Shown: positions 466 to 17,746 of the stretch, piece after piece
Numbering within the stretch: position 1 is the first letter of the stretch
How the letters are laid out: the number at the start of each line of letters is the position of its first letter
From: Clostridiales bacterium
GTDB taxonomy: Bacteria; Bacillota; Clostridia; Christensenellales; Borkfalkiaceae
DNA length: 43,254 nucleotides
Reading direction: 5' to 3'
Assembly (NCBI GenBank): GCA_022508245.1
Contig: JAFLVO010000008.1
Location: forward strand, 1-43,254
Translations under genes and position numbers: made by a program
The notes under the pieces: model-generated
What the model was told of the DNA's origin: nothing
Seen by the model: only the letters and a program-made list of their open reading frames with translations
The model's database searches: none

Positions 466-550
466 TGCCTGTTTCTTCCTTATCTTTACCCAATCAAATT
501 GCCGTAATCGGATATTGTTTCTTAATATCAAATACCTTCTTAGGGGCTTT

Positions 551-579
551 ATTTTATCACAATATATCGTTATTCGCAA
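551..579 (-). promoter_or_regulatory. SigA-type promoter of the GLUG surface protein gene
   Basis: On the minus strand TTGCGA (574-579) and TAAAAT (551-556) are separated by exactly 17 nt. The expected start gives a leader of about 80 nt before the ATG at 465. No other element is evident between this promoter and the terminator at 717-756. Confidence 0.6.
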
Positions 580-716
580 GTTTATGCAGATTAATTTAGA
601 CAAAAAATCGATTGGCCCCGAAAAAAATATGGATTAGGTACAAAATTCAAGTGTTCAACTTGGATGGAAACATACTGTTTTAAAGCCATTTTGACTCTAA
701 TTTGTCCTGTTTTTGT

Positions 717-756
717 AAAAAAATTAGAGCTTATTCCGTTATAGAATAAGCTCTAA
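717..756 (-). terminator. Rho-independent terminator of the RiPP-like operon
   Basis: A perfect 12-bp stem (724-735 with 745-756, arm TTAGAGCTTATT) with a 9-nt loop is followed on the minus strand by a run of T (717-723). It is the first strong terminator downstream of the UvrA-like gene, so it probably marks the end of the operon that begins near 8.8 kb. Confidence 0.8.
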
Positions 757-985
757 ACTACTAAATATTGTAATAATTTTTTTCAGTAAACCACTAAATA
801 ATCGTAACGATTACTTTCTCGGATTCTTGATATTCGCCTGTACTGATGTCTTATTATGAAGGGTGACCGTTGGTTATCTAAGTAAACTGCTTCTATGTCT
901 TTTTTCGATAATAAACCCGTCCTCTGCGCTTACGCTTACGACATATGCCACTGTAATACAATTCCATAAATATTATATCCGTGAA
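757..985. other. Gene-free stretch with an imperfect direct repeat
   Basis: No convincing gene lies here. Two imperfect copies of a roughly 25-nt AT-rich sequence (AAACYACTAAATA...) occur at about 754-778 and 784-809. A 24-codon very basic frame (893-967, minus) was considered and rejected. The stretch separates the UvrA-like gene from its terminator and may be the scar of an insertion. Confidence 0.35.
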
Positions 986-3421
986 TTAAACAAAATGCCT
1001 CAGTGATTTGCCGGTGACAGTATTTGTTGCCGCTACTTCTTTTGCCGTACCGGTCGCAACGACCACTCCGCCGTCTTTACCTGCACCGGGCCCCATATCG
1101 ATAATGTAGTCTGAACATGCTATCAGTTCCATATTGTGTTCAACAATGATTATTGAATTGCCTTCAGCAATAAGCTTTTCAAACATAAATACCAAATTTT
1201 GTATATCGACGGAATGCAGTCCAGCTGAGGGCTCATCGAAAATATATAACACATTTTTCAATTTGCTGTTCATTAGATTACCGGCCAATTTTAACCGTTG
1301 CGATTCACCGCCTGACAGTTCAACAATATTTTGCCCTAGCCTTAAGTACCCTAAGCCGACATCCTTCAATAATTTGAGCTTTTTTTGAATCTTTTTTTCT
1401 TCACTGAAAAAGTTGCACGCCGTATCAACATCAAGGTCGAGTACTTCCGAGATATTCTTACCATGATATTTCACGCCTAAAATTTTGCTGTTAAATCTGC
1501 GTCCTTCGCAACAAGGGCATTTAATTTCCGAATTGCTTAAAAAATAACTCGAGAGCTTTATTTTCCCAAACCCGCCACATTGGGGACAAGCACCTGCTGC
1601 AGTATTAAAGCTGAAAGCCGTTTCGTTCAAGGCCTGTTTAGCGGCTTCTTGCGTAGCGGCAAACAACTTCCTTATTTCAGGCATGATTTCACTGTAGGTC
1701 GCTACGACAGAACGGGAATTGTTCCCGATAGGCGACTGGGAACAAAGTATAATTTGCTCCACCTTTTCGCTGTTTACTATCTCAGCCTGTACTGTCGTTC
1801 TCGTCTTGGAAACCTGTTTGTTTATTCTGCCGTATTCAACAAGCGAATCGAAAACTAACGAGCTTTTACCTGAGCCGCTGATACCCGTAATTGCCACGAT
1901 ACAATGGAGCGGTATGTCCACGTTTACATTTTTCAAATTGTTGGAATTTGCGTTGCGAATACCGATAAAGTCGCTCAGATCATACCCACACGGTCTGCCA
2001 CGCTCAATTTTTAATTGCTTCAACAATAATTTTTCTGTTAAACAGGCTGTATCCTTCAGTCCCTCTTTCGAACCGTTGTAAACGATTACACCACCATGAT
2101 AGGAAGCACCCGGACCGAATTCCATGATGTTGTCCGCAATATCTACGAGTTGCGAATTGTGTTCCACTAACAGTACCGTATTCCCGTTCCCCGCTTGCTG
2201 CAAAGCCTTTATTTCGCGAATCAGATTTGGAATCTCACAATAGTGCAGTCCGGTGGACGGTTCATCGAGAATATACAGCACACCGGACATTTTGTTGGAT
2301 ACCAATGTAGAGAGAAATAGCCGGTGCATTTCACCGCCGGAAAGCGAGGCCGTTTTTCTCGATAGACTTAGGTACGAAATTCCGAGATTGATAATAACCC
2401 CGCATTGATCTAAAATTTTACCAATTGGAATGCTAATGATATCGTCGCGCAAATCGCCGAAGTGAATATTCTTTAGAAAATGATATAGATCAAAAATGGT
2501 CATATTCTGCACATCGCAGATGTTTTTGCCGTCGATTAAAATGCTTTGCGCCAAACGGGAGATACCTGCGCCGTTACAGTCCTCACATACCGAGTATGTG
2601 AAAAATTGAGACAACTGCTGTCTTAGCTTACTGCTGGTAGTTGTCTTATACGTTTTAAAAATTTCGTTGACGATTCCCTCAAACGCAATCTTATTCCTTT
2701 TGCTTTTTGGCACGCCGTATAAAAGTGCAACTTTAAGCTCGTTGCTGAAGTATTTAATAGGCATATCCATTGTTGCGCCGTATTGCATGACAAAGGATTT
2801 GAAGAAATTGTATTTGGTAGTGCCCTTTGTAGGGATACCATAGAGAAACCCGCCTTCACTGAGCGATAATTCCTGATTGGGATAAATTTTCGTTTCATCG
2901 ACATCTACGATAACGCCTTCCCCTCCGCACGTTTGGCACATGCCGTTGGGCGACATATTGGAAAAAAACGAGGGCGGCAAAACCGCAGGCTTGACGCCGC
3001 AACTCGGACAAGGTATATATGCCGAAGTATAAAAATTCAACCCGGTCTTTTGACAATGCAAACAAGGTTGTTGACCAACAGACGAAAATATAGCAAACAA
3101 AAAGGAGTTGATATGCGATACGCTACCTACGGTGCTTAGCGGATTGGATACGTTCCTGACTTGCCGAACTGCTACGGTTGGAGGCAACCCGATTGCCATG
3201 TCAAGATCGGACGAGCAGGACTTCGATAAATAAAATGCCTCGCTCGGGTCTAAAATTTCTAAGAATTGGCGACGCCCCTCGCTGTAGACCGTATTAAAGG
3301 CAAAAGAAGATTTGCCGGAACCGGAAACACCGGTTACTGCCGTAATCTTGCCGTAAGGGAAGGAAACATCTATATTTTTGAGGTTGCCCTCTTTGCAACC
3401 TATAAACTTTATTTCATTCAC
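986..3421 (-). CDS. Short UvrA-like ABC ATPase, candidate self-protection protein
   Basis: This 811-residue protein has both ABC modules of UvrA: Walker A GVSGSGKSS (about 31-39) and a second GISGSGKSS, signatures ASLSGGEMHRL and ELSGGESQRL, and Walker B LYILDEPSTGLH and LYIFDEPSAGLH. Zinc-binding cysteine pairs are present (CPSCG, CQTCGGEG, CEDCNGAG, CPQCGGFG, CPCCEGRR). It is about 130 residues shorter than repair UvrA. The part that normally carries the UvrB-binding domain, after the first module begins, appears missing, as in UvrA2/DrrC-type proteins. Those proteins occur in producers of DNA-binding antibiotics and give resistance, so I infer self-protection or product handling here, not general excision repair. 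The start is GTG, 15 nt after the radical SAM gene, with a weak ribosome-binding site. It is the last gene of the operon. Confidence 0.85.
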   Translation of the reverse strand: MNEIKFIGCKEGNLKNIDVSFPYGKITAVTGVSGSGKSSFAFNTVYSEGRRQFLEILDPSEAFYLSKSCSSDLDMAIGLPPTVAVRQVRNVSNPLSTVGSVSHINSFLFAIFSSVGQQPCLHCQKTGLNFYTSAYIPCPSCGVKPAVLPPSFFSNMSPNGMCQTCGGEGVIVDVDETKIYPNQELSLSEGGFLYGIPTKGTTKYNFFKSFVMQYGATMDMPIKYFSNELKVALLYGVPKSKRNKIAFEGIVNEIFKTYKTTTSSKLRQQLSQFFTYSVCEDCNGAGISRLAQSILIDGKNICDVQNMTIFDLYHFLKNIHFGDLRDDIISIPIGKILDQCGVIINLGISYLSLSRKTASLSGGEMHRLFLSTLVSNKMSGVLYILDEPSTGLHYCEIPNLIREIKALQQAGNGNTVLLVEHNSQLVDIADNIMEFGPGASYHGGVIVYNGSKEGLKDTACLTEKLLLKQLKIERGRPCGYDLSDFIGIRNANSNNLKNVNVDIPLHCIVAITGISGSGKSSLVFDSLVEYGRINKQVSKTRTTVQAEIVNSEKVEQIILCSQSPIGNNSRSVVATYSEIMPEIRKLFAATQEAAKQALNETAFSFNTAAGACPQCGGFGKIKLSSYFLSNSEIKCPCCEGRRFNSKILGVKYHGKNISEVLDLDVDTACNFFSEEKKIQKKLKLLKDVGLGYLRLGQNIVELSGGESQRLKLAGNLMNSKLKNVLYIFDEPSAGLHSVDIQNLVFMFEKLIAEGNSIIIVEHNMELIACSDYIIDMGPGAGKDGGVVVATGTAKEVAATNTVTGKSLRHFV

Positions 3422-3436
3422 AGTCGCACCACTTTT

Positions 3437-5014
3437 CTAATAATTTTGAATGATTGACAGGATATTTTTATCAAATCTGCTCGGCTCAATGCCGGGGTCG
3501 TCCATAAATACTCTGCCGCCGTAACAATACTTATTGTTCTGCGCTCCTGCCATAAATGTATCTACAAGCGCAACATATTTCAGTACGTTGCTATAGCTAT
3601 GCTCATCATAATACAGCATATTGATATCTATATCTTTATTCCACCCTTTCACATACTGTTTCATGAGCTGATCGTATATGGGAGTGCCGGAATATGCGGT
3701 AAAGACGGACAGGCTGTAGGAGTAAATTTTATCCTTATTATTGACCATGAACCTTAGCGTTGCGTCCCTGTCCTCGTCTGTTTCTCCAGGGAACCCGAAC
3801 ATAATATACGCATGAATCCTTATGCCGGTTTGTTTTGCCACCGAAAGAAACGTATTGTATTCGTCAACATTCGTGCCCTTTAACATGGCATTTAACACTT
3901 TTTGGGAACCGCTTTCAAAACCGATCCTCAGCATGCAGCATCCGTTACTTGCTAATTGCGGCAATATTGACGTGAGCGACTTATCCGCTCTTGCGTTTAT
4001 TCCCCATTTGAATTCGCCGTGAATCAGATCTGCTATCTTCAACAAGTCACGCGGGATGATTGCCGCATCGGTAAAGTAGACGTGCGTTATGCCGCATTGG
4101 GCAACGAGAGCCCTCAACGAGCGTACCGTGTCTTCAATTAACTTATTGTCAAGCTTATGCACTTCAACGCTTCTGTCGCCATTGCAAAATCGGCATTTTC
4201 CGTAATAGCAGCTCGTTCGAAAGGAAAACGGAATACATCGGGTACGGCTATCCGTATAATATTGTTCCCATTTTACGTCGAAAAAATCAGGAACCCGTTC
4301 TAAATCTGCCCTGCCTTCTCTGTTTGAATTGCCATGGGGCAGACAGAGGGAGAGTAGCGTGCCTTCACCTGAACCGCATATTACGTTATCCGCCAATGCG
4401 CCAAACCGACTCATATACCGATATTCGCTCTTATTCTGCTCGAATAAACTACCGCCGAAGACGATTCGTATTTGAGAATTGTGCTTTTTTATGCGTTTTG
4501 CAATTAATAATGCGAAGGGCAGCTGTGAGAGGAAGGATACGGATAATCCAACAATAGAGCAGCCCAAGCGACAAACATCTGTAATTTCCTCTTCTAAAAG
4601 CGGTTCAAATATGGACAAATTTTCCATACCAATAACAATATCTTCATAGGATTTCAAACCCGACTTAAAGGTCACTGTACCTGCAGAGAATACGACATTG
4701 TTTTGAAGCCTATTCAACAATTCTTCTGCCAAAATCAGCTTACTGATTCTATCCTCGCTATCACTTTTATAATTTAACAGCAAGTCCTGATTGGGTACTT
4801 CAGTCTTCTTGCACAACGCCAAACATTTGTTGAGTTTATCCTGCTTTCGTACATTATGGTAAAACACTATCGAAAGATCGACCGCATATGATACTACGCC
4901 GTGCTTTTTTAGATAACGGTTTAATATGTATGCTCCCAACATCGGCATTGTGACATCGCCCGGTGGCGGAATTATGAGCGCGATTTCGTGCTTAGGAATC
5001 TCATCGTTACCCAT
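3437..5014 (-). CDS. Cobalamin-binding-type radical SAM enzyme, RiPP maturation
   Basis: 525 residues. The N-terminal half looks like a B12-binding Rossmann domain (IALIIPPPGDVTMPMLGAYI, later IVGLSVSFLSQ and IRIVFGGSLFE) without the classical DxHxxG motif, as is common in this class. The radical SAM cluster motif CYYGKCRFC (CX3CX2C) is near residues 268-276, followed by RIGFESGSQKVL and YIMFGFPGETDED, typical of B12-radical SAM proteins. Relatives methylate unactivated carbons or perform other cobalamin-assisted radical chemistry, and several act on peptides. The start ATG directly follows the TAA of the recognition-protein gene (5015-5017), so translation is probably coupled. Substrate and reaction are inferred from context only. 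Confidence 0.8.
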   Translation of the reverse strand: MGNDEIPKHEIALIIPPPGDVTMPMLGAYILNRYLKKHGVVSYAVDLSIVFYHNVRKQDKLNKCLALCKKTEVPNQDLLLNYKSDSEDRISKLILAEELLNRLQNNVVFSAGTVTFKSGLKSYEDIVIGMENLSIFEPLLEEEITDVCRLGCSIVGLSVSFLSQLPFALLIAKRIKKHNSQIRIVFGGSLFEQNKSEYRYMSRFGALADNVICGSGEGTLLSLCLPHGNSNREGRADLERVPDFFDVKWEQYYTDSRTRCIPFSFRTSCYYGKCRFCNGDRSVEVHKLDNKLIEDTVRSLRALVAQCGITHVYFTDAAIIPRDLLKIADLIHGEFKWGINARADKSLTSILPQLASNGCCMLRIGFESGSQKVLNAMLKGTNVDEYNTFLSVAKQTGIRIHAYIMFGFPGETDEDRDATLRFMVNNKDKIYSYSLSVFTAYSGTPIYDQLMKQYVKGWNKDIDINMLYYDEHSYSNVLKYVALVDTFMAGAQNNKYCYGGRVFMDDPGIEPSRFDKNILSIIQNY

Positions 5015-5284
5015 TTATATGATCTCGATTAAATCAAGCTTAATACAAGTTTCGATAAAATCCGTTACGACTTTTTCAGTCTCTATGTAGCCCATCCCGC
5101 TAAGCTGTTTTGCAATGTCGCCTATGGATGATTGTCCGTCGACGAGATGTAAAATTTTCGCTGCGTCATTATCAAATGATAGGATTGGCGTCCTGTTCGT
5201 AAATACGAGACAACCAAACTCCTCATCCCGAAACCGAACGCCTGCCCGAATTTGCGGAATCATATTCAGTGAAGTCATATTCAT
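5015..5284 (-). CDS. PqqD-like RiPP recognition element (RRE) protein
   Basis: 89 residues with the PqqD pattern: R-x-E/D-E-F-G-C-L-V-F (FRDEEFGCLVF), then ILSFDNDAAKILHLVDGQSS and IGDIAKQLSGMG. This is the winged-helix fold that binds the leader of RiPP precursors and brings it to the radical SAM enzymes. As a separate small gene between two radical SAM genes it is strong evidence for a peptide-modifying pathway. AAGGAG stands 4 nt before the first ATG and 10 nt before the third codon, also ATG, so the true start may be residue 3 (5278). The stop abuts the next start. Confidence 0.85.
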   Translation of the reverse strand: MNMTSLNMIPQIRAGVRFRDEEFGCLVFTNRTPILSFDNDAAKILHLVDGQSSIGDIAKQLSGMGYIETEKVVTDFIETCIKLDLIEII

Positions 5285-5298
5285 ATTTCTCCTTGTGA

Positions 5299-6297
5299 TT
5301 ATTTAGAACAGAACGAATCGGGCGTCTCGCGCCAATTTCCGTCTTTCATTGCCGAGGCACGGCATCCGCCATGGCAGGCAGCCAATGTACTGCACTTAAG
5401 ACATGTACGAGGCAATTGCTCTTGTCTTACGAAACAATTGAATACATCCGAATTTCTTTTGATCTCTGAAAGCGGCGTTTCCAAAATATTGCCGCCAAGC
5501 GGAATTCGCGTCAATCCGCAGACCATAAGATTCCCTTCCACATCTACATAAAATCTGTCATACCCGTAAGAGCATGTGTTACACAAGTGCTTTAAGTCGG
5601 GCGGCACAATGCAAAAAGGCATTGCTTCTGCGAATTCGATATGCATTTCATTGTGTTGCATAAAGTGCTCTGCAAACCTCATTATGTCAATCATATCATT
5701 TTTTTCTATTTCCAAATCATGTGCCAATTGCCCAATTCCGACCGGAACAAACCGCGTGACAGTCATGAATTTTAACCCTATCGACTGCAGATATTCGGCC
5801 GTCTTCGGCATAACCTCTTTGTTAAACGCATTAAGCACAAAATTGCTCGCAACAGGTACCCTTTTATCGCGTAAGTATGCCTTGATAGCATTCGTAGAAG
5901 CGTCAAAGCTCCCCTCAACACCCGTTAAACTATCATGCGTCTCCGCATCTCCGTGAATGGAAATACTAACGCTCATTGGTCCTATGTCACAAATCCGTTT
6001 TACGTTTTCGTCCGTCATCAAAGCGCCGTTTGACAGTATCATGACATTGGGGAAAAGCTCGACGGCCCTCTTTAAGATTTCAAAAAAATCTGGATGCATT
6101 AATGGCTCGCCTCCGGTGAGGGTAAGCTGCATAATACCCTGCTGCGCAAGCACATCCATCATTTCGAAAACTTTGTGATTGAATCTCGGCTTTTGCGAAT
6201 TGTAGCAAAAGCGGCATTTGAGATTACACGCCTCCGTTAACTCAATTTGAACCAGCAGCGGCTGTATCTCATATAAATGGTCGTATTTTTCCGCCAT
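5299..6297 (-). CDS. Radical SAM/SPASM peptide-maturation enzyme (second)
   Basis: 332 residues. CNLKCRFC (CX3CX2C, residues 24-31) binds the SAM cluster. LTLTGGEPLMHPDF and SNGALMT are standard radical SAM core motifs. The C-terminal half has a SPASM/twitch layout: CNTCSYGYDRFYVDVEGNLM, then CGL, then CLKCSTLAACHGGCRAS, which should hold auxiliary iron-sulfur clusters. SPASM enzymes make thioether, carbon-carbon or epimerised sites in RiPPs. It is paralogous in layout to the neighbouring enzyme at 6316-7302. An optimal ribosome-binding site (AAAAAGGAGG) lies in the 18-nt gap before the ATG, so this enzyme may be made well. The exact reaction cannot be read from sequence. Confidence 0.87.
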   Translation of the reverse strand: MAEKYDHLYEIQPLLVQIELTEACNLKCRFCYNSQKPRFNHKVFEMMDVLAQQGIMQLTLTGGEPLMHPDFFEILKRAVELFPNVMILSNGALMTDENVKRICDIGPMSVSISIHGDAETHDSLTGVEGSFDASTNAIKAYLRDKRVPVASNFVLNAFNKEVMPKTAEYLQSIGLKFMTVTRFVPVGIGQLAHDLEIEKNDMIDIMRFAEHFMQHNEMHIEFAEAMPFCIVPPDLKHLCNTCSYGYDRFYVDVEGNLMVCGLTRIPLGGNILETPLSEIKRNSDVFNCFVRQEQLPRTCLKCSTLAACHGGCRASAMKDGNWRETPDSFCSK

Positions 6298-6315
6298 ATA
6301 ACAAAATCCTCCTTT

Positions 6316-7302
6316 TTAATTGTTCAGCAGACACCCCGACTGATCGCACGGCAGGCATCCGCCGCCGCACACCTTCAAAAACAAACACTCGTTACAATTT
6401 TGATGTCTCGCGCCCGTCTTAGTCCATTTGTCTTCAAGAAATCCATCCCACGCTTTTGAAAATAATTCCGTTTTTATATTCCCGATGATCGGTGCATCCA
6501 AAACGGGGCAAGGCGTGATATCGCCCTCAGGCGTTATTCGCGCTGTAGCAAGCCCCGCAGAACATGGAACATTGCTCTCGCAAATAAAATTCAGTAATTT
6601 TGAATGAGAGCCTATGCGGCAGGGAGGGAACGGTTGAGGTAATCCGATCCGTGCAAACTGGTTTCTGCTCTCGGTTTGAAATTTAAAAACGGTTTCTACC
6701 GCGGTTAAGAATTCTGCATCCGAAACAGCTATTGCACTGTCATTTGTTAAAACACGGGACAATAACAGTGTTCCCACCCCCAGCGAGGATAGCAACTGTA
6801 ATATCGCCCCGATGTCGTCCTGATTTTGTTTAGTGACAGTTACGTTAACTGCAACATAGACATTATTTGCAACAAGATGCTTGATACCGGCTACCGCCTG
6901 TGCAAATGCACCCGTTCTGCCCACTACAAGATCGTGTTTTTCGGGAGTTGCGCCATGCAGAGAAGAGCACACGGCAGGAAACAGTCGGGCAATGCGTACC
7001 GCAGTTTTTTCGTCAATCAACGTAGCATTCGTATTAAAGTGAATGTCAAAGCCGAGCTCTAAGCACAATTGGGCTAAGTCAAAAAATTTTGTGTACAACA
7101 AAGGTTCCCCACCGTTAAAATTGATGGAGAAAACCCCGTACTCGCGCATGTCTGCCAATATAATCTTCAGTCTATCGTACGGAACCGTCTTTTGATTGCC
7201 TGTTCCGTCTAAATTATTGTAGCAGAATCCACATGTGTTGTTGCATGCGTAAGTAAGCTCAAGCTGTATTGATATGGGTCTCGTTTTGTAGATTAGCGGC
7301 AT
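6316..7302 (-). CDS. Radical SAM/SPASM peptide-maturation enzyme (first)
   Basis: CNNTCGFC (CX3CX2C) is at residues 20-27 if the start is the ATG at 7302. INFNGGEPLLYTKF and the C-terminal Cys-rich part (CPVLD, CNECLFLKVCGGGCLPC) give a SPASM architecture. Upstream in-frame ATGs at 7311 and 7326 would lengthen it by 3 or 8 residues. I chose 7302 because it leaves the usual spacing before the cluster motif and the shortest overlap (10 nt) with the precursor candidate, but no ribosome-binding site favours any of them. The lack of its own ribosome-binding site suggests translation coupled to the precursor gene. It probably acts on the Cys-rich peptide encoded just upstream. Confidence 0.85.
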   Translation of the reverse strand: MPLIYKTRPISIQLELTYACNNTCGFCYNNLDGTGNQKTVPYDRLKIILADMREYGVFSINFNGGEPLLYTKFFDLAQLCLELGFDIHFNTNATLIDEKTAVRIARLFPAVCSSLHGATPEKHDLVVGRTGAFAQAVAGIKHLVANNVYVAVNVTVTKQNQDDIGAILQLLSSLGVGTLLLSRVLTNDSAIAVSDAEFLTAVETVFKFQTESRNQFARIGLPQPFPPCRIGSHSKLLNFICESNVPCSAGLATARITPEGDITPCPVLDAPIIGNIKTELFSKAWDGFLEDKWTKTGARHQNCNECLFLKVCGGGCLPCDQSGCLLNN

Positions 7303-7496
7303 GCACAGCATTGGCACGGCGTGCATTTACATACGATTTTATCGCCAGCGTTGTCTGTCCCGCGCTTAATGAATTCCGAAACGCGAAAATCCAGCTGCGT
7401 CAATTGCGAAACACCACCGACATGCTCATGCGATTTCGCAAAAGGTCTTTCATAGGGGTTAAAGATTTCTATTTTCGGCTGCAATGCTTGATTCAT
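7293..7496 (-). CDS. Candidate RiPP precursor peptide with Cys-rich C-terminus
   Basis: 67 residues. The first 55 hold no cysteine and look like a leader (NPYERPFAKSHEHVGG, then LTQLDFRVSEFIKRG). The last 12 are CKCTPCQCCACR, six cysteines in 12 residues, which would be the core. AAGGAG (7505-7510) sits 8 nt before the ATG and inside the end of the FRG gene. The 3' end overlaps the start of the first radical SAM gene. Position next to an RRE protein and three radical SAM enzymes is what makes this a precursor candidate. The closest known themes are Cys-rich sactipeptides or ranthipeptides, but I recognise no named family. There is no acceptor-rich stretch typical of sactipeptides, so the cysteines may be linked to each other's neighbours, methylated or used for metal binding. 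Confidence 0.7.
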   Translation of the reverse strand: MNQALQPKIEIFNPYERPFAKSHEHVGGVSQLTQLDFRVSEFIKRGTDNAGDKIVCKCTPCQCCACR

Positions 7497-7499
7497 AAT

Positions 7500-8747
7500 T
7501 TATTCTCCTTCTATTTCTATTACAAATTTTGCTTTTTGATAAAATTTCAACCGATAAATATCATTTACCAGCTCGTCTCTGGCCTTAGATTCTTCCGGCG
7601 CACTCAACAACGTTGAAATTTTATCGTTTTCCGTTTGACTTTCGAAATCTAAAATGATTTTGGCATATTCTTTTCGCTTGAGCAAAAACTCATCTCGGTG
7701 ATCGCCCTTTTTTAATTTTTCTGCCACTTCAATGATATCTATACAACGTCCAAAATTATCTGCACTTGGAATAATTCGGGACTTATCATTCATTTCGATG
7801 GATAATTCATAACTATCGATTGCTTTCTCAAATTCTCCTTTTTCGACGGCAAGATCGCCTTTCAATCGATAAAGCCATCTCACTACAACTTGATGATCTC
7901 TTCTGATCAACGGCACCAACCTTTCGGCTTGTTCTATCTCATATTCAGCCTTCTCCAATTTATCTATAAAAATATATGTCGTTGCTGCTTGTAAGCGCAT
8001 GATGACATCGTTGATATAAAAAGATTCAACGATCAGGCTTGCCCCCCAACCGCAAAACCCATAGAAATCCTTAAAAAGCTCTTTCTTCGAAATGCCAAGA
8101 TTCGCCAAAGTTTTTAAAATTCCCGCCTTGCAACGGTTAGGTACGATATATTTATCCACCAGCATTTCGTCAATCCGACCGATGTTTGGAATAATAAAAC
8201 AACCCTGCTGGGATAAAATTCTCGTGTTGAATGCCACGGGATCCAATATGTAATTATACCACGCGTCATTATGTGCGAAAATATTCTCAATGGTACAATC
8301 ATTATTTATGATTGCAAATTTCGATTTTTTTACATAATATACAACGCCGTCATCGTTTTCGTTTTTTTCATCAGTCAGGCATGCAAAGAACAATGCGACC
8401 AACGGATTGTAGGAAAAATCAATCAGCCCTGTCTTTGCTCCGCCGTGTTGCAAAACCGCCAATAATTCAAACGGGGAAGAAGAAAGCTGCCTTTCCTCAT
8501 CGCTGTTGATTTTATGTGCCTGCTCCAAGAGCAATTGGTGATATCGTTTAATATCTTCGACGTTTACCTTCTCATCTTTTTTTGTTTCACTTATTACTCT
8601 ATATGCCCCGCTGCTGACATCGTATCTCGTTGAAGGCTGTCCTCTAAAAATAAATTTTTGTTTCTCGTCATTCGTCAAAGTGATAATAGCGTCAATGTAA
8701 TCAACGACGCCGTTTATTTCAATTTCGTTTGTCTTTTGTTCGCTCAT
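7500..8747 (-). CDS. FRG-domain protein with TPR-like C-terminus
   Basis: 415 residues. The N-terminal third has the FRG-domain hallmarks: FIFRGQPSTRYDV (about 32-44) and LLAVLQHGGAKTGLIDFSYN followed by PLVALFFAC. The C-terminal part is helical and contains a TPR-like unit (LKGDLAVEKGEFEKAIDSYE). FRG domains are widespread, often in mobile or defence-type loci. Their biochemical role is not well established, so I assign none. It is the first gene after the promoter at 8793-8821. Its TAA is 3 nt before the precursor ATG, and it contains that gene's ribosome-binding site, so it belongs to the same transcript. A role in regulation, immunity or target interaction is possible. Start chosen by the AAGGAAAC site just upstream. 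Confidence 0.8.
   Translation of the reverse strand: MSEQKTNEIEINGVVDYIDAIITLTNDEKQKFIFRGQPSTRYDVSSGAYRVISETKKDEKVNVEDIKRYHQLLLEQAHKINSDEERQLSSSPFELLAVLQHGGAKTGLIDFSYNPLVALFFACLTDEKNENDDGVVYYVKKSKFAIINNDCTIENIFAHNDAWYNYILDPVAFNTRILSQQGCFIIPNIGRIDEMLVDKYIVPNRCKAGILKTLANLGISKKELFKDFYGFCGWGASLIVESFYINDVIMRLQAATTYIFIDKLEKAEYEIEQAERLVPLIRRDHQVVVRWLYRLKGDLAVEKGEFEKAIDSYELSIEMNDKSRIIPSADNFGRCIDIIEVAEKLKKGDHRDEFLLKRKEYAKIILDFESQTENDKISTLLSAPEESKARDELVNDIYRLKFYQKAKFVIEIEGE
7505..7510 (-). promoter_or_regulatory. Ribosome-binding site of the precursor peptide
   Basis: AAGGAG, 8 nt before the ATG at 7496, embedded in the last codons of the FRG gene. It decides that the short Cys-rich frame is translated, and it ties its translation to that of the FRG gene. 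Confidence 0.7.
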
Positions 8748-8792
8748 ATTTAGTTTCCTTATTTCCTTATCAATAAAGAACTACCAGTAGAA

Positions 8793-8821
8793 AGAATAGC
8801 ACAATTCAACAATTTCTGCAA
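8793..8821 (-). promoter_or_regulatory. SigA-type promoter of the RiPP-like operon
   Basis: Minus strand TTGCAG (8816-8821), 17-nt spacer, TATTCT (8793-8798). The expected leader is about 40 nt with AAGGAAAC before the FRG start. No promoter as good was seen between the later genes, whose gaps are 0-18 nt, so one transcript to the terminator at 717-756 is likely. Confidence 0.6.
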
Positions 8822-8951
8822 GCAATTTTTTAACGGAAGTCTGTATGAACGTATTCTTTCAAAAATATTGATAATTCGTTTTCTTTATAGACGACAGAAA
8901 TCGATAAATTGTTACATTAAAATTCAAATTTATATAATAGATTTTTGCATC

Positions 8952-8962
8952 GCAACAATTAC
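8952..8962. repeat. 11-bp direct repeat, left copy
   Basis: GCAACAATTAC, exact match to 10931-10941. AAAATT follows shortly after in both places. The two copies bracket the decayed recombinase. It may be a target duplication or attachment-site remnant, though chance is possible in AT-rich DNA. Confidence 0.35.
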
Positions 8963-8983
8963 TCAAAATTACAATTCAAAGAC

Positions 8984-10706
8984 TTAAATGTAGATTTTTA
9001 CCATTAAATTCTGATACTGATTCTGTCTTAACAGTTGTTTCCTTTTATTTCTATATTTCAACGCTTCTTTGAAGGGAATACAAAAACTACAAAAAAATTT
9101 CTTATCCGTACTTAGATTCGCTTCTGTTTCAAACCGTAAATACCAAGAAAATTCCGTCTCGCTTTCTGCTTTTATTTGAGTCACATATTTATTAATGATA
9201 TTTTCATCAAAGTCAGTATTGTTGGAAGAAACAAAATCAAGTAAGTGCTTTTTGATTTCTTCCTTTGTGACGGGTGCGCTTGAGCAACTCTTGGTAAGCT
9301 CTCATAATCAAGCAATTGCTGTTCGGCTTGCTTTTTATCTGCATCTACTGATGCTTTTAATCTTAAATATGTATCTCTATCTATTTCGCCGTTCATGCGC
9401 ATCTCTATAAGGCGTTCTGCTTTTTCGGCAATCTTTTTAATCTCCAACCTATAACTATGCCTTATTCTTTCAATATCTTGCTGTTCCATTACAGTTTCAT
9501 CCATAAAAATTTTAATCGATTTTTCTAATAGTTCGCTATCTTTCCAAACCTTTCTGAAAACGGCTTTTGCCATCATCTCAAGTTTCCAGCCACAGATAGC
9601 TCGCATATCACAAAACCCCTCACTATCTCTGTTCGAAATTTTATTAGCCCCTTATTTAACTGGTTATAGCACTTATAGCCCACAGGTCTTTCACCGTTCA
9701 ATTTCGGTCTCCACTTATCCATACGCATAGACGAACCGCAACGGCACCTCAACTTTTTTGTCCAAACATTACCGCCTTTATTTATTCCTGAATATTGCAT
9801 CTTGGCATTGCCATTTACGTTTACTAACCGCAAATTTCTTTTACTCTCTCTGATAAGTTTACAGTGTTCCCACTGTTCTTCGGATACAATCGGCTCAAAG
9901 TTAGCAGTAACATACTCAAACGTATCTTCATTGTGATTGATAATAACTTTCTGCTCAAGATAGTTATTCCTATACGATTTATTATAGGCAACAACTCCCC
10001 TGTAAGCTGAGTTGTGTAGGCAGCGCATTATTCTTGTATTGTCCCATTTCACAATCCCACTTGAATTCTTCCTCCCACGTTTAATAAGTTCATCACAAAT
10101 TGACTAAATTCCAAAACCAAACTCGTACATATTAAATATCATGCGCACTGTTTCAGCTTGATCTTCATTTATAACATAAGTATCGCCAACCCTATCATAA
10201 CCAAGCAAATTGCCGTTCCCGTATAGAACGCCGTTTTTTCTGCTTATAGCTTGTCCCGCCTTAATTCTTTCCGACATCTTGCGGCTTTCTTCCTGTGCGA
10301 CCATCGCCCTTATAGTTAAAATTATTTCTCCTTCATTTTCCATTGTCCATATTCCCTCCTGCACAAAAAATACTTCTACTCCGTAATTTTTTAATTGTCT
10401 TGTAACTTCAAGACAATCAATTGTGTTTCTTGCAAATCTTGAAACCTCCCTTGTTACAATTAAATCAAATTTTCCAAGCTTTGCGTCGTCTATCATCCGC
10501 ATAAATTCAGGACGCTTTTTTGCTTGTGTACCGGTAATACCATCATCCACATATCTTTCAATAATAATCCAATTGGGATAACTTTTCTTTAACTCCTCAT
10601 ACCATTGCATCTGATTACTCAATGCGTATGTTTGCGCTTCGTGTTCTGTAGATACTCGCCCATAGAACACTACTTTTCTGTTGCTGATTGTTTGATAATT
10701 TTTCAT
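8984..10706 (-). pseudogene. Decayed large serine recombinase
   Basis: Read from the ATG at 10706 (AAAGGAG 8 nt upstream) the product starts as a serine resolvase: YGRVSTEHEAQTYALSNQ with the catalytic Ser, VDDGITGTQAKKRPEF, REVSRFARN, and AQEESRKMSERIKAG. An in-frame TAG at 10104-10106 breaks it after MYEFGFGI. The same frame then continues with the recombinase domain (CDELIKRGRKNSSGIVKWDN) and the zinc ribbon (CRCGSSM ... CYNQ). A first frameshift near 9625 moves reading to DSEGFCDMRAICGWKLEMM and the coiled-coil zone. A second near 9290 moves it to TKEEIKKHLLDFVSSNN, ending at 8984. Functional relatives mobilise conjugative transposons. With three lesions this copy cannot make a full enzyme, although the N-terminal catalytic domain alone is still encoded. 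Confidence 0.88.
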
Positions 10707-10765
10707 TTTTTGTTCTCCTTTAATTTTTAATGTTAACTTAAAATATAACAAATTAAGAGAACGTG

Positions 10766-10797
10766 AAAGTCCTGCAAACACTTGATTGCAGGACTTT
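10766..10797. repeat. 12-bp inverted repeat upstream of the recombinase
   Basis: AAAGTCCTGCAA (10766-10777) and TTGCAGGACTTT (10786-10797) form a perfect inverted repeat around an 8-nt centre, 60 bp before the recombinase ATG. It lacks a good T-run on either strand, so it is more likely an operator or recombinase attachment-type site than a terminator. Confidence 0.5.
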
Positions 10798-10930
10798 ATA
10801 AAAAGCTATTCAATTTGTTATTAAATCACTTGTTGCCGTATTCTGAAAAATCAGTGTAATAGCAAATAAAAAACCGGATTTTCTGTTACACGAAAAGATT
10901 ATTTTATCAATATCTACGGGTGCAAGTCTT

Positions 10931-10941
10931 GCAACAATTAC
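10931..10941. repeat. 11-bp direct repeat, right copy
   Basis: GCAACAATTAC, matching 8952-8962. It lies between the recombinase remnant and the PPDK terminator, where a boundary of an inserted segment would be expected. Confidence 0.35.
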
Positions 10942-10961
10942 CCCTAAAATTGGCATAAAAT

Positions 10962-10985
10962 GACCGTTTTCTTGCGAAAACGGTC
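10962..10985 (-). terminator. Terminator of ppdK
   Basis: GACCGTTTTC (10962-10971), TTGC loop, GAAAACGGTC (10976-10985): a perfect 10-bp stem, 10 nt after the ppdK stop. On the minus strand it is followed by ATTTTATG, a modest U-run. Confidence 0.65.
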
Positions 10986-10995
10986 AAATTTTATC

Positions 10996-13644
10996 TTATT
11001 TATTACGAGGCTGACGAATATTGGCTTGTGCTGCTGCGAGGCGCGCAATGGGTACGCGGTAAGGCGAGCAGGAAACATAGTCAAGACCGATGTTGTGGCA
11101 GAACTCTATGGACGAAGGGTCGCCGCCGTGCTCTCCGCAGATACCTACGTGAAGAGCCTTTCTTGTACCCTTGCCGAGCTTAACTGCCATATCCATAAGC
11201 TTACCTACACCTGTTGTGTCGAGGCGGGCGAACGGGTCGCTTTCGTAAATCTTATTTGCATAGTACGAAGGAAGGAACTTGCCTGCGTCGTCACGACTGA
11301 AGCCGAACGTCATCTGAGTTAAGTCGTTGGTGCCGAAACAGAAGAACTCTGCCTCTTTTGCAATCTCGTCTGCCGTGAGGCAAGCACGGGGAATTTCAAT
11401 CATGGTGCCGACTTCGTATTTAAGTGCAACGCCCGAAGCCTTGATAACCTCGTCAGCGGTTGCAACAACAATCTTTTTAACGAAAGCCATCTCTTTTACT
11501 TCGCCCGTCAAAGGAATCATAATTTCGGGAACTACTTTCCAATCGGGGTGCTTTTTCTGAACGTTGATTGCGGCTTTTATAACTGCCTTTGTCTGCATAA
11601 CCGCAATTTCGGGATAGGTTACCGTAAGGCGGCAACCGCGGTGTCCCATCATGGGGTTGAACTCATGCAAATCGGAGATAATCTGCTTAATCTGAGCAAC
11701 CGTCTTGCCCTGAGCCTTTGCAAGAGCCTTTATATCGTCCTCGTCGGTGGGAACGAACTCGTGAAGAGGGGGGTCAAGGAAACGGATGGTTACGGGATAA
11801 CCTTCAAGCGCCTCCATAATTCCTTCGAAGTCTGCCTGCTGCATGGGCTCGATTTTAGCGAGAGCTTTCTCCCTCTCCTCTACGGTGTCTGCGCAAATCA
11901 TTTCTCTGAACGCGCCTATTCTTGCGGGGTCGAAGAACATATGCTCGGTACGGCAAAGACCTATGCCCTGTGCGCCGAACGCAGCTGCCTGTTTAGCGTC
12001 TGCGGGGGTGTCTGCGTTGGTTCTTACGCCAACTGCCTTATATTTGTCGGCAAGCTCCATAATTCTGCCGAAGTAGCCCGAGTTGGGGTCTGCGGGAACG
12101 GTGGGAATGAGGCAATCGTAGATATTACCCGTCGAGCCGTCGAGCGAAATGCTGTCGCCCTCCTTGAATACCTTGCCTGCAAGCGTGAAGCGCTTGTTCT
12201 TTTCGTCCATTTTGATATCGCCGCAGCCCGATACGCAACAGGTTCCCATACCGCGTGCAACGACTGCCGCGTGAGAGGTCTGTCCGCCGCGAACGGTCAA
12301 AATACCTTGAGCATACTTCATACCCTCGATATCCTCGGGGGAAGTTTCAAGACGGACGAGAACTACTTTCTTGCCCTTCTTGCCTTCGATAACTGCGTCC
12401 TCTGCCGTGAACACGATAGAGCCGGCAGCCGCGCCGGGAGATGCTGCAATTCCATTGCCGACTACGTTGTTCTTGTCGGCATCCTTTAAAGCCTTTGCAT
12501 CGAACTGGGGATGAAGAAGCATATCGAGAGATTTTGCGTCAATCTGCATAAGCGCTTCTTTTTCGGTAATCATGCCCTCGTCGATGAGGTCGCAGGCGAT
12601 TTTAATTGCCGCAGCCGCGGTGCGCTTGCCGTTACGCGTCTGCAACATATAGAGCTTTTCGTTTTCAACCGTGAACTCCATATCCTGCATATCGCGGTAG
12701 TGATTTTCCAGTATTTTGCAAACTTCCTGGAACTGCTCATAAACTTTGGGGAATACTCTCTTCATCTCTGCGATGGGCATGGGAGTTCTTACGCCTGCAA
12801 CGACGTCCTCGCCCTGAGCGTTGGTAAGGAATTCGCCCATAAGTCCCTTTTCGCCCGTTGCGGGGTTACGCGTGAACGCAACGCCCGTTCCGCAGTTGTC
12901 GCCCATGTTGCCGAACGCCATCATCTGAACGTTTACGGCTGTCCCCCATGAATAGGGGATATCGTGGTCCATTCTGTAAATGTTTGCACGGGGGTTGTCC
13001 CACGAACGGAATACGGCTTTGACTGCCTCGAAGAGCTGTTCCTTGGGGTCGGCGGGGAAGTCTTTGCCAATCTGTTTTTTGTACTCTGCCTTGAACTGAT
13101 TTGCAAGCCGTTTCAAATCGTCTGCGTCAAGCTCTACGTCCTGCGTTACGCCCTTCTTCTCCTTCATCTCGTCGATGAGCTTTTCAAAGTACTTCTTGCC
13201 GACTTCCATAACGACGTCGGAGAACATCTGAATAAAGCGGCGATAGCAGTCGTACGCCCAGCGGGGATTGCCCGACTTGGTTGCAAGTACTTCTACAACC
13301 TCTTCGTTGAGACCGAGGTTTAAGATTGTGTCCATCATTCCGGGCATGGATGCTCTTGCGCCCGAACGAACGGAAACGAGAAGGGGATTTTCTTTATCGC
13401 CGAACTTCTTTCCGGTGATTTTTTCCATCTTGTCGATATAAGTTAAAATTTCTTTCTGTATATCATCGTTGATTTTTTTGCCGTCCTCGTAGTACTGTGT
13501 GCAGGCTTCGGTCGAAATTGTGAAGCCCTGAGGTACGGGAAGTCCGATATTTGTCATCTCCGCAAGGTTTGCACCCTTGCCGCCGAGAAGCTCTCTCATC
13601 TTTGCATTACCTTCGGTAAAAAGGTAGCAATACTTCTTTGCCAT
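10996..13644 (-). CDS. ppdK: Pyruvate, phosphate dikinase
   Basis: 882 residues, full family length. It interconverts ATP, phosphate and pyruvate with AMP, pyrophosphate and phosphoenolpyruvate in the cytosol. In Clostridia it works in glycolysis or gluconeogenesis. Visible landmarks are the N-terminal ATP-grasp start (LGGKGANLAEMTNIGLPVPQ), RSGARASMPGMMDTILNLGL, the phosphohistidine site GGQTSHAAVVARGMG near residue 457, the C-terminal TIM-barrel motifs FGTNDLTQM and the catalytic cysteine segment HVGICGEHGGDPSS. The ribosome-binding site GGAGG is 11 nt before the ATG, somewhat long. It has its own promoter (13688-13716) and terminator (10962-10985), so it is monocistronic. Confidence 0.98.
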   Translation of the reverse strand: MAKKYCYLFTEGNAKMRELLGGKGANLAEMTNIGLPVPQGFTISTEACTQYYEDGKKINDDIQKEILTYIDKMEKITGKKFGDKENPLLVSVRSGARASMPGMMDTILNLGLNEEVVEVLATKSGNPRWAYDCYRRFIQMFSDVVMEVGKKYFEKLIDEMKEKKGVTQDVELDADDLKRLANQFKAEYKKQIGKDFPADPKEQLFEAVKAVFRSWDNPRANIYRMDHDIPYSWGTAVNVQMMAFGNMGDNCGTGVAFTRNPATGEKGLMGEFLTNAQGEDVVAGVRTPMPIAEMKRVFPKVYEQFQEVCKILENHYRDMQDMEFTVENEKLYMLQTRNGKRTAAAAIKIACDLIDEGMITEKEALMQIDAKSLDMLLHPQFDAKALKDADKNNVVGNGIAASPGAAAGSIVFTAEDAVIEGKKGKKVVLVRLETSPEDIEGMKYAQGILTVRGGQTSHAAVVARGMGTCCVSGCGDIKMDEKNKRFTLAGKVFKEGDSISLDGSTGNIYDCLIPTVPADPNSGYFGRIMELADKYKAVGVRTNADTPADAKQAAAFGAQGIGLCRTEHMFFDPARIGAFREMICADTVEEREKALAKIEPMQQADFEGIMEALEGYPVTIRFLDPPLHEFVPTDEDDIKALAKAQGKTVAQIKQIISDLHEFNPMMGHRGCRLTVTYPEIAVMQTKAVIKAAINVQKKHPDWKVVPEIMIPLTGEVKEMAFVKKIVVATADEVIKASGVALKYEVGTMIEIPRACLTADEIAKEAEFFCFGTNDLTQMTFGFSRDDAGKFLPSYYANKIYESDPFARLDTTGVGKLMDMAVKLGKGTRKALHVGICGEHGGDPSSIEFCHNIGLDYVSCSPYRVPIARLAAAQANIRQPRNK

Positions 13645-13814: not shown

Positions 13815-14534
13815 TCAAAATAATCTTATGTATTCCGAAAGGCTGTTAAATGAATAATTGAGCTTGTATGCATAGTACTCGCGAAGAAGCCTTAAAGCCC
13901 GTTTTTCGCCGTCGGCGGTTATAAAGTCCTCTTCAAAGGACTTGCCGTCCAGCTTTCTTAAAAGGTTGTACGTAACTCTGCTTGCGCCCGCACCGCTTCC
14001 GCACTCCGCGCAAGTAAACGAGCCTGTTTCCATATCAAACCGCAATTTGTCTACGCCTATTAAGCTTTTTCCGCACTCCGAGCATTTATCGGCGTTTAAG
14101 CCGTAGCCAGAAAGCCTTAACGCGCGGACGAGAAAGTTAATTAAAGCCGTACTCTCCCCTCCCGTACACATGGCGGCGAGGGTATTTACCGCCTCGCTAA
14201 ACAGTTCTGTACACTCGCTACCCTCAAAGCTTAATGCGTTAGCCGCCTCGCATACGGCGCTTGCCGCGTAAAACTTGTTTATGTCCGTGCGCAAATCGTA
14301 AAAGCTTTCGCACTCCGAACAGTTTATAACGGTGTACTTATCTCCGCGCTTAACTAAAATATACTCCGCAAAACAAAAGGGCTGAGCCGCAAATTTAAGC
14401 TTTGCATTCGGCTTTTTTACGCCCTTTATGCCCGCGGAAATTTTGCCCTCCTCGGCAGAGAGCAGAGTAAGTATTTTATCGTTTTCGCCGTAGTCCACGG
14501 CGCGTATCATAAGTGCGTTTAACTTAATTTCCAT
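13815..14534 (-). CDS. recO: DNA repair protein RecO
   Basis: 239 residues, normal for the family. RecO loads RecA on SSB-coated single strands together with RecR (RecFOR pathway). The N-terminal OB-fold start is typical (KLNALMIRAVDYGENDKILTLL, then EGKISAGIKGVKK). A zinc-finger-like pair CSECGKS and CAECGSG lies near residues 150-180, as in many Gram-positive RecO proteins. It is the last gene of the yqfC-recO block. The gap to yqzL upstream holds a 123-bp repeat-like segment. Confidence 0.93.
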   Translation of the reverse strand: MEIKLNALMIRAVDYGENDKILTLLSAEEGKISAGIKGVKKPNAKLKFAAQPFCFAEYILVKRGDKYTVINCSECESFYDLRTDINKFYAASAVCEAANALSFEGSECTELFSEAVNTLAAMCTGGESTALINFLVRALRLSGYGLNADKCSECGKSLIGVDKLRFDMETGSFTCAECGSGAGASRVTYNLLRKLDGKSFEEDFITADGEKRALRLLREYYAYKLNYSFNSLSEYIRLF

Positions 14535-14567
14535 TTAAATCATTATTAAAAGCAATTCAAGTAACTT

Positions 14568-14690
14568 TAAACTTTGGAGATGCGAGCAGAACGAGGCGCG
14601 CGAGCATTTTTGAAGGGGAGTTTACTAACCCGTAAATGACCCGAAAAAAGCGGAGCGCAACAAAGTTATGCGACGCATATACGAAGTTTA
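14568..14690. repeat. 123-bp repeat-like intergenic segment
   Basis: Bounded by TAAACTT (14568-14574) and its inverse AAGTTTA (14684-14690), GC-richer than the flanks, with an inner hairpin TTTAC/GTAAA around 14630. It abuts the yqzL stop and has no plausible gene. The look is that of a small dispersed repeat, but only one copy is visible here. Confidence 0.35.
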
Positions 14691-14691
14691 A

Positions 14692-14796
14692 TTAGCCTTC
14701 GCCGTTAAGCCTTTTATAGAGCATATAATAGCTGACATTGCCAGTCTTTTCAAACATCTTCCAGGCAAGCTCTGCCGCGTCTTTATCTCTTTTCAT
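14692..14796 (-). CDS. yqzL: YqzL-family small protein
   Basis: 34 residues (MKRDKDAAELAWKMFEKTGN, then VSYYMLYKRLNGEG). The pattern W-x-x-F-x-x-T-G-x-x-x-x-Y-x-x-x-K matches the short YqzL family, which in Bacillus lies between era and recO, exactly the place here. GGGGG stands 7 nt before the ATG. Function is unknown in the family. It is easily missed by gene finders because of its size. Confidence 0.8.
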   Translation of the reverse strand: MKRDKDAAELAWKMFEKTGNVSYYMLYKRLNGEG

Positions 14797-14852
14797 AGTG
14801 CGCCCCCTTTAAAGTTAGGTTGCGTCAAAAGTCAAAAATTATAACCTTGAGG

Positions 14853-15734
14853 TTACAAGTCTCCGAAAATGTCCTTGACAAGCCCGGGGCGGTTGCGCCA
14901 ATCTTCCTCTACTCGGACGTAGGTTGTCAAAAAAACTTTTGCGCCCAAAAACTTCTCCATAGCCTCGCGCGCGAACGCGGAAACCTCCTTTATAGCTCTT
15001 CCCTGCTTGCCGATAATTATCGACTTGTGGTTAGCTTTTTCGCAGACTATGTCGAGATTTATATCGTAAACGCCGTTATCCTGACGTTCGAATTTATTTA
15101 TTACTATACCCACACCGTGGGGAATTTCGTCGTCGAATTTTAAAAGAATTTTTTCGCGCATAATTTCGGCAATCATAAACTTTTCACTCTTATCCGAAAC
15201 TATGTCCTCTTCAATAACCTTTCCGCCCTCGGGGAGCTGTTCTACAAGGTACGCCTCGAGCTTTTTGAGGTTGGTATACTTTCTCGCCGATACGGGGAAG
15301 ATATCGCAATTTATCCCGAAGTCGTACATCTTTTTGACTTCCTGTGCGATATTTTCCTTGGGCATTATGTCTATTTTAGTGAACGCTACGGCGACGGGAA
15401 TTTTGCCGTTCAAATATTTTTTTACGGTCTCCATATCGTTTTCACTGACGCCGTCGTGACCGTCGAGTACGTATAAAATAAAGTCGGCGTCCTTTGCGGC
15501 GTCGTCCGTACTCTTCATCATTATATCCGTTAAATAGGTAGAGCTCTTATAAAGTCCCGGAGTGTCCACGAACACAATCTGATACTCAGGCTTTGTCAGA
15601 ACGCCAAGAACGGAGTTGCGCGTGGTCTGGGGCTTGGGGGAAACTATTGAAACTTTTTCGCCCACCAACACGTTTACAAGCGTGCTCTTGCCTGCGTTTG
15701 CTCTGCCTATTACCGCTACTACGCCCCCTCTCAT
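14853..15734 (-). CDS. era: GTPase Era
   Basis: 293 residues. Era binds GTP and the 3' end of 16S rRNA and helps assemble the 30S subunit. The GTPase motifs are GRANAGKST (G1), PQTTRN (G2), DTPG (G3) and TKID (G4). The C-terminal KH domain has KSIIIGKQGRAIKEVSAFAR. The ATG at 15734 shares one base with the ybeY stop (TGATG), so translation is coupled. A TTG one codon earlier is possible but less likely. Its pairing with ybeY is common and both act in ribosome maturation. Confidence 0.97.
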   Translation of the reverse strand: MRGGVVAVIGRANAGKSTLVNVLVGEKVSIVSPKPQTTRNSVLGVLTKPEYQIVFVDTPGLYKSSTYLTDIMMKSTDDAAKDADFILYVLDGHDGVSENDMETVKKYLNGKIPVAVAFTKIDIMPKENIAQEVKKMYDFGINCDIFPVSARKYTNLKKLEAYLVEQLPEGGKVIEEDIVSDKSEKFMIAEIMREKILLKFDDEIPHGVGIVINKFERQDNGVYDINLDIVCEKANHKSIIIGKQGRAIKEVSAFAREAMEKFLGAKVFLTTYVRVEEDWRNRPGLVKDIFGDL

Positions 15735-16195
15735 CAAGCTCTCTCCAAATTGATTTTTTTAAGTATTTTCTCTTCCTTTTCCCGCATTTCCTGCTTGTCC
15801 CCGTCCGTCATATGGTCGTAGCCGAGAAGATGCCAAAGACCGTGTACGGCAAGATAGTTTATCTCCCTCTCCTCGGAATGTCCGTATTCCTCTGCCTGCT
15901 CCTTTGCGCGCTTTTCGCATATCGCAATACTGCCGAGGAATATCCCCCCCTCCTCGTCTAGGTCGGCGGGGTGCTCCTTTTTCAAAAGCTTTACGTCCTT
16001 TATGTTGTCAAGCGATGGAAAGCTTAAAACGTCGGTCACGCTGTCTATATCCCTCTGTTCACGGTTCAAGGTCTTTATGTACTCTTCGTCGGTAATTATT
16101 ATCTCTGCGGAAAGAGGGCAGTCGCTTTCGACTTCCCCCTCAAACGCCGCGCCAAGCGCGGTAAAATCATAATCTTCACAAAAAATTTTAATCAT
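15734..16195 (-). CDS. ybeY: Endoribonuclease/rRNA maturation factor YbeY
   Basis: 153 residues. The zinc-binding signature HGLWHLLGYDH lies at about 118-128 and is the hallmark of the family. The upstream core TDVLSFPS is also typical. YbeY takes part in 16S rRNA 3' processing and ribosome quality control. The ribosome-binding site is weak. The stop overlaps the era start. Confidence 0.95.
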   Translation of the reverse strand: MIKIFCEDYDFTALGAAFEGEVESDCPLSAEIIITDEEYIKTLNREQRDIDSVTDVLSFPSLDNIKDVKLLKKEHPADLDEEGGIFLGSIAICEKRAKEQAEEYGHSEEREINYLAVHGLWHLLGYDHMTDGDKQEMREKEEKILKKINLERA

Positions 16196-16222
16196 ATATG
16201 TCTATTTGTTGTACATTTACTC

Positions 16223-17719: not shown

Positions 17720-17746
17720 AATTTTTACCTAACGTATAATATATGT

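Follow-up and report, generated by a model that had tools for sequence, protein, structure and literature searches.

We analysed a 43,254-nucleotide (nt) stretch of DNA from Clostridiales bacterium (contig JAFLVO010000008.1; hereafter the window) and found on its minus strand, from 8747 to 986, a run of seven genes with the composition of a pathway for a ribosomally synthesised and post-translationally modified peptide (RiPP). In order of transcription they encode an FRG/TPR protein, a small Cys-rich peptide, two SPASM radical S-adenosylmethionine (SAM) enzymes (rSAM1 and rSAM2), a PqqD-like RiPP recognition element (RRE), a B12-type radical SAM enzyme and a UvrA paralogue. Based on gene content and conservation, as read from the sequences, RRE-guided radical SAM maturation of the peptide's C-terminal KCTPCQCCACR is well supported. 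Beyond this, our favoured explanation, to which we give about an even chance, is that the operon makes one essentially fixed, probably DNA-acting product, with the UvrA paralogue serving as self-resistance in the way that Ecm16 does for echinomycin. The broader proposal of a RiPP class spread over two phyla, in which a single fixed DNA-binding peptide arises from KCTPCQCCACR and a UvrB-independent UvrA paralogue provides immunity, is more tentative, and we lean slightly against it being right in every part.

When genomes were scanned with a B12-type enzyme alignment, using only the patterns VYFTDAA[IL] and KCxFCNGD, 70 candidate stretches and three confirmed loci emerged: L029 in Clostridiales bacterium isolate HAN108, L030 in an uncultured Clostridia bacterium (isolate Lapin-020__bin46) and L031 in Spirochaetia bacterium MS502-68. 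L029 belongs to the genus of the window and carries an identical peptide, so that the window and these loci together count as three independent lineages. The order peptide–rSAM1–rSAM2–RRE–B12-type enzyme–UvrA is kept in all three, and neighbouring genes of the L031 cassette overlap or lie within 6 nt of each other. Further, a small Cys-rich frame stands directly before rSAM1 in each of them and ends in KCTPCQCCACR. This is the co-occurrence of enzymes and short Cys-rich frame that the sequence-only reading of this stretch had proposed as its own check. Modifying enzymes and a recognition element next to the precursor, in one order throughout, are what is expected of a RiPP locus. L031 has diverged considerably from the window (identity of 38% for the B12-type enzyme, 45% for the RRE, 50% for rSAM1, 53% for UvrA and 64% for rSAM2); despite this divergence of the enzymes, the last 11 residues of its peptide are identical to those of the window.

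The peptide gene, to judge from its ribosome-site-like sequence AAGGAG, its homologues elsewhere and the synonymous bias of its codon differences, is real and not a chance open reading frame (ORF). When the window and L030 were compared, 4 of the 12 codons of core and stop differed (three synonymously, one stop-to-stop, none non-synonymously), while the rest of the gene held 16 synonymous and 9 non-synonymous differences, giving 20 synonymous-or-stop vs. 9 non-synonymous for the whole gene. Between the window and L031, 7 of the 12 codons of core and stop differed, six synonymously and one stop-to-stop. Since the codon changes in the core are only synonymous or stop-to-stop, the sequences indicate that selection keeps the amino-acid sequence of the peptide, not its DNA.

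As sole query against 5.8 billion proteins, the window peptide retrieved four relatives, and a profile of six peptides yielded 99 precursor relatives (E up to 0.1) among 192 candidates. Together with the window and locus copies this makes 103 peptides, 101 of them distinct. This set was collected by shared 5-residue words and consequently over-represents carriers of the core. Of the 101 distinct precursors, 99 end exactly in KCTPCQCCACR and the other two in KCTPCQCSACR, with a mean pairwise identity of 0.446 outside the 11 core columns; L029, L030 and L031, found through the B12-type enzyme, are free of the word-seeding bias. An N-terminal motif, PxIxxFxP(F/Y)xxPF, is nearly invariant across the distinct precursors, and thus leader and conserved core lie in one gene-encoded precursor, as in RiPPs. 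No family was found for the window peptide in Pfam, NCBIfam or PADLOC, nor for six other precursors in NCBIfam at E 10. Cores are often variable within RiPP families. The near-invariance of this one is the most surprising fact about the system, and it is compatible with either a fixed antibiotic or a cofactor-like molecule.

The domain assignments of the sequence-only reading hold with two cautions, namely that the B12-binding match falls just below the Pfam cut-off (PF02310, 29.1 vs. 32.1 bits, E 9.5e-7) and that Pfam gives no hit for the PqqD-like protein at E 0.1. Radical_SAM and SPASM domains are present in both rSAM1 and rSAM2, and a Radical_SAM domain in the B12-type enzyme. The PqqD-like protein scores 25.6 against PqqD (cut-off 46) and 20.9 against MftB (cut-off 33). 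Its predicted structure (mean predicted local distance difference test score, pLDDT, of 87.9) supports an RRE-like fold, with TruD, TbiB1 with leader, PqqD and the PbtF RRE among the first Foldseek rows. The best PDB sequence match of both SPASM enzymes is SkfB (E 5.5e-33 for rSAM2 and 3e-19 for rSAM1), yet cut-offs for named maturases are missed throughout: rSAM2 scores 110.7 against the SkfB model (cut-off 300) and 88.9 against PqqE (381.35), and rSAM1 80.7 against PapB (340) and 110.7 against mycofactocin MftC (265), its best NCBIfam model.

The operon thus resembles sactipeptide and other SPASM RiPP systems (SkfB, SuiB of streptide, CteB, PapB) in its SPASM enzymes, RRE and Cys-rich precursor, but differs in combining two SPASM enzymes with a B12-type enzyme and a UvrA paralogue, in its stand-alone RRE and near-invariant core, and in reaching none of the listed family cut-offs. 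With the mycofactocin and pyrroloquinoline quinone (PQQ) systems (MftB/MftC, PqqD/PqqE) it shares a stand-alone PqqD-type RRE next to a SPASM enzyme and a core conserved as in a cofactor, whereas its scores lie far below the equivalog cut-offs and its Cys-rich core, B12-type enzyme, UvrA and rare distribution set it apart. The B12-type enzyme itself resembles PhpK, the TIGR03975 RiPP C-methyltransferases, AprD4 and OxsB in its radical SAM core, to which a weak B12-binding match is added, but scores far below the cut-offs of those families and carries the cluster motif C-x4-C-x2-C, invariant in 18 aligned sequences, in place of the usual C-x3-C-x2-C. In the libraries and open-access literature searched we found no described RiPP class that would correspond to this gene set and no paper with the core strings, and these non-exhaustive searches agree with the earlier statement that no named class has it.

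The last gene had been described as a short UvrA, and it is indeed short in comparison with the full-length UvrA encoded in the same genome (a 941-residue open frame, 939 residues from ATG). The two proteins are 35% identical, and housekeeping residues 134–152 and 159–250 (numbered in the 941-residue frame) are absent from the paralogue; this missing part of about 111 residues is the UvrB-binding domain. Both ATPase regions (ABC_tran in two stretches), the insertion domain (UvrA_DNA-bind at 175–272) and the CxxC pairs that flank the gap are kept. The pairs at 120 and 138 of the paralogue align with those at 123 and 252 of the housekeeping protein and, by position, would represent zinc module 1. 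The paralogue narrowly misses the equivalog model for housekeeping UvrA (TIGR00630, 726.9 vs. 729.8 bits), and its PDB matches are led by ordinary UvrA (2r6f, 561.5 bits), followed by UvrA2 (2vf7, 444.7 bits) and Ecm16 (7sh1, 395.4 bits), among others.

According to its published description, Ecm16 (PDB 7sh1) protects E. coli K12 from echinomycin also without UvrB, needs its insertion domain to bind DNA and shows a 16-fold increase in ATPase activity on echinomycin-bound DNA; the Ecm16 type is defined there by the absent UvrB-binding domain, and the way in which DrrC works is described as unknown (PMC10192343). Our paralogue resembles Ecm16 (echinomycin) and DrrC (daunorubicin) in being encoded together with biosynthetic genes and in having the ATPase regions and the insertion domain. 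As is stated for Ecm16, it lacks the UvrB-binding domain, but it differs in its RiPP operon context and in the CxxC pairs, since Ecm16 is characterised by the absence of zinc module 1 and here they are retained. The suggestion that the product is perhaps DNA-directed is therefore plausible, and is sharpened by a UvrA without the UvrB-binding domain as in Ecm16, although the DNA target itself is something that we infer.

We propose that the RRE would bind the leader motif and present the C-terminal core to the enzymes. The two SPASM enzymes, by their kinship with SkfB, may form Cys-thioether or related bonds on the core, while the B12-type enzyme would act on it as well, perhaps by C-methylation. 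The near-invariant core implies essentially one product. As no protease is encoded in the operon, the leader would be removed by an unlinked peptidase. The product would act on DNA, and the UvrA paralogue might bind product-loaded DNA and protect the producer without excision repair, e.g. by stripping the product off DNA. Of the earlier claim that a RiPP-type operon makes a modified Cys-rich peptide, the peptide as likely substrate, the RRE and the three radical SAM enzymes stand, whereas we infer the thioether-type bonds and the B12-dependent step, as well as leader removal and UvrA immunity with its mode of action.

The system is rare. The precursor profile recovered all three known carriers (genomes G035 and G578 are apparently the same assembly), yet in overlapping draws of genomes from the class, order and phylum it was positive in 1 of 391, 1 of 396 and 1 of 398, each time the window's own. 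In the family of genome G579 it was positive in 1 of 100 (G579 itself), and in family f58 in 0 of 60, a sample that held no positive control. The B12-type enzyme alignment at E 1e-40 likewise found 1 of 391 genomes, again the window's. Among 200 relatives, 136 had a match to this enzyme at E 0.001, but a near-identical copy was present only in the window's genome and G035, the next best match scoring 46.7 bits. Some precursor clusters nevertheless stand for many contigs (P0113 for 495 and P0062 for 165).

Such a distribution is more in keeping with an accessory product than with a core cofactor, and it bears on the strongest alternative: a cofactor, metal ligand or signal derived from the peptide and comparable to PQQ or mycofactocin, with a UvrA-type ATPase recruited for another task such as sensing or handling it. 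That one core is near-invariant among the distinct precursors and occurs in records of two phyla, that the best NCBIfam model of rSAM1 is MftC, though far below cut-off, and that neither the ORFs nor Pfam reveal an exporter in the operon all speak for a cofactor-like molecule. So sparse an occurrence, however, speaks against it, and a DNA-binding UvrA paralogue would be an odd partner for a redox cofactor. Rarity and the UvrA paralogue tilt us towards the fixed antibiotic, and we regard the cofactor-like product as unlikely, at rather less than half the weight of the self-resistance explanation.

The setting of the operon may be that of a mobile locus. Pyruvate phosphate dikinase (PPDK) occurs in 47 of the 56 genomes that make up the genus sample, among them the window's own. 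Of 20 PPDK loci fetched, one is that of the window; of the remaining 19, five have sequence directly after PPDK that aligns with window 849–640, beyond the operon, in a stretch that is single-copy in the genome (L057, L060 and L062 by BLAST; L064 and L069 only by local alignment). These matches are short, some of them with identity near 70%, fewer than 400 bases are present there in several loci, and the comparison is only suggestive of an empty site that lacks about 10 kb. The DNA downstream of PPDK varies widely among congeners (window 10996–13644; loci L051–L069) and has the appearance of a hot spot for insertions. A large serine recombinase, apparently interrupted, lies in pieces over several minus-strand ORFs (9181–10781) between the FRG gene and PPDK, and in L029 a similar recombinase is divided between two ORFs. 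Other neighbours were observed at the more distant loci. In L030, genes for a YoeB-like toxin and a TIR-domain protein (14244–18624) follow the cassette within 5 kb, hinting at a defence-rich neighbourhood; in L031, a uvrB gene (9362–11428) is found 307 nt downstream of the cassette's UvrA paralogue, which may be chance.

Recombinase remnants and a variable PPDK neighbourhood, together with the missing exporter, would also suit a chemical defence island, in which the modified peptide would act as an intracellular poison of phage DNA replication, with the FRG protein, a possible NADase effector, as a second arm. The FRG protein has a 61.7-bit Pfam match to FRG with weak TPR matches and falls into the PADLOC candidate-defence family PDC-S15; FRG domains have been proposed as antiviral effectors, possibly NADases (PMC9503650). 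This gene is present in the window, L029 (as an ORF) and L030, but the spirochaete cassette lacks it and is preceded, at a distance of 281 nt, by a TPR/DUF2971 gene. The earlier placing of FRG within the core system was accordingly rejected, and we treat the protein as a passenger or a second function. Moreover, the only PADLOC matches of the SPASM enzymes are to viperin models (at most 77.2 bits), and the 171.7-bit match between the UvrA paralogue and mad3 of MADS was discarded as a sign of defence, because the housekeeping UvrA control scores 329 bits and the match thus reflects UvrA kinship. Precursors were found neither in IMG/VR viral contigs nor, for P0113, in phage records; plasmid records contained neither the P0062 precursor nor the B12-type enzyme or the spirochaete rSAM2, and four viral loci for the B12-type enzyme were weak (24–30% identical). 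We consider a defence island improbable, clearly more so than a cofactor. Finally, we think it very unlikely that the small Cys-rich protein is no precursor but binds metal or serves as a scaffold, with some other substrate for the enzymes. Cys-rich tails can bind metal, but the peptide lies directly before the SPASM enzymes in four of four loci (window, L029, L030 and L031), the radical SAM genes have an RRE in their midst, and the peptide itself combines a conserved N-terminal motif with a separate Cys-rich C-terminus that runs up to the stop.

The coordinates of the operon are collected in Table 1. All seven ORFs were recovered where the sequence-only reading had placed them, with distances in transcription order of 3, −10, 18, 14, 0 and 15 nt and hence one overlap; if rSAM1 starts at 7326, the peptide–rSAM1 distance becomes −34 nt. 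A terminator-like stem-loop also follows the operon, in line with the terminator described earlier, whereas the single promoter is unconfirmed: a consensus scan of 500–9200 lists no minus-strand promoter-like site upstream of 8747 (8748–9200), a result that excludes nothing. Elsewhere in the window, a 3375-residue minus-strand frame (32996–43123) resembles a repetitive protein of the cell surface whose C-terminal segment is hydrophobic.

Table 1. Features of the operon in the window, in order of transcription
Feature	Coordinates	Strand	Basis
FRG-domain protein, 415 aa, weak TPR matches; first gene of the run, accessory	7500..8747	-	Pfam, PADLOC, locus comparison
Precursor peptide, 67 aa; leader motif PxIxxFxP(F/Y)xxPF, C-terminal core KCTPCQCCACR	7293..7496	-	ORF, homologues, codons
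Near-invariant core, codons for KCTPCQCCACR and stop	7293..7328	-	Precursor alignment, codon comparison
rSAM1, SPASM radical SAM enzyme, 328 aa (336 aa from alternative start 7326)	6316..7302	-	Pfam, NCBIfam, PDB sequence match
rSAM2, SPASM radical SAM enzyme, 332 aa; best solved relative by sequence SkfB	5299..6297	-	Pfam, NCBIfam, PDB sequence match
Stand-alone RRE, PqqD-like, 89 aa	5015..5284	-	Sub-cut-off PqqD models, model fold
B12-type radical SAM enzyme, 525 aa; cluster motif C269-x4-C274-x2-C277	3437..5014	-	Pfam, NCBIfam, alignment
UvrA paralogue without UvrB-binding domain, 811 aa; two ABC ATPase regions and DNA-binding insertion domain kept	986..3421	-	Pfam, NCBIfam, alignment
Intrinsic-terminator-like stem-loop after the UvrA paralogue, 14-pair stem and T run	724..756	-	Sequence scan

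A core that stays fixed while the enzymes drift to 38–64% identity points to strong selection on one molecule. If the UvrA paralogue is its immunity factor, the target, DNA, would be indicated before the structure of the product is known. To our knowledge, no ribosomal peptide with UvrA-type self-resistance has been characterised before, and this would then be the first. A study that mined 642 actinobacterial clusters by uvrA-like genes had RiPPs as one of its eight classes and pursued the saccharide class (PMC10413001); if our explanation is true, such mining would extend to ribosomal peptides of Clostridia and spirochaetes. With a precursor of about 65 residues and a conserved pathway of six genes, the system can be rebuilt and tested in the laboratory.

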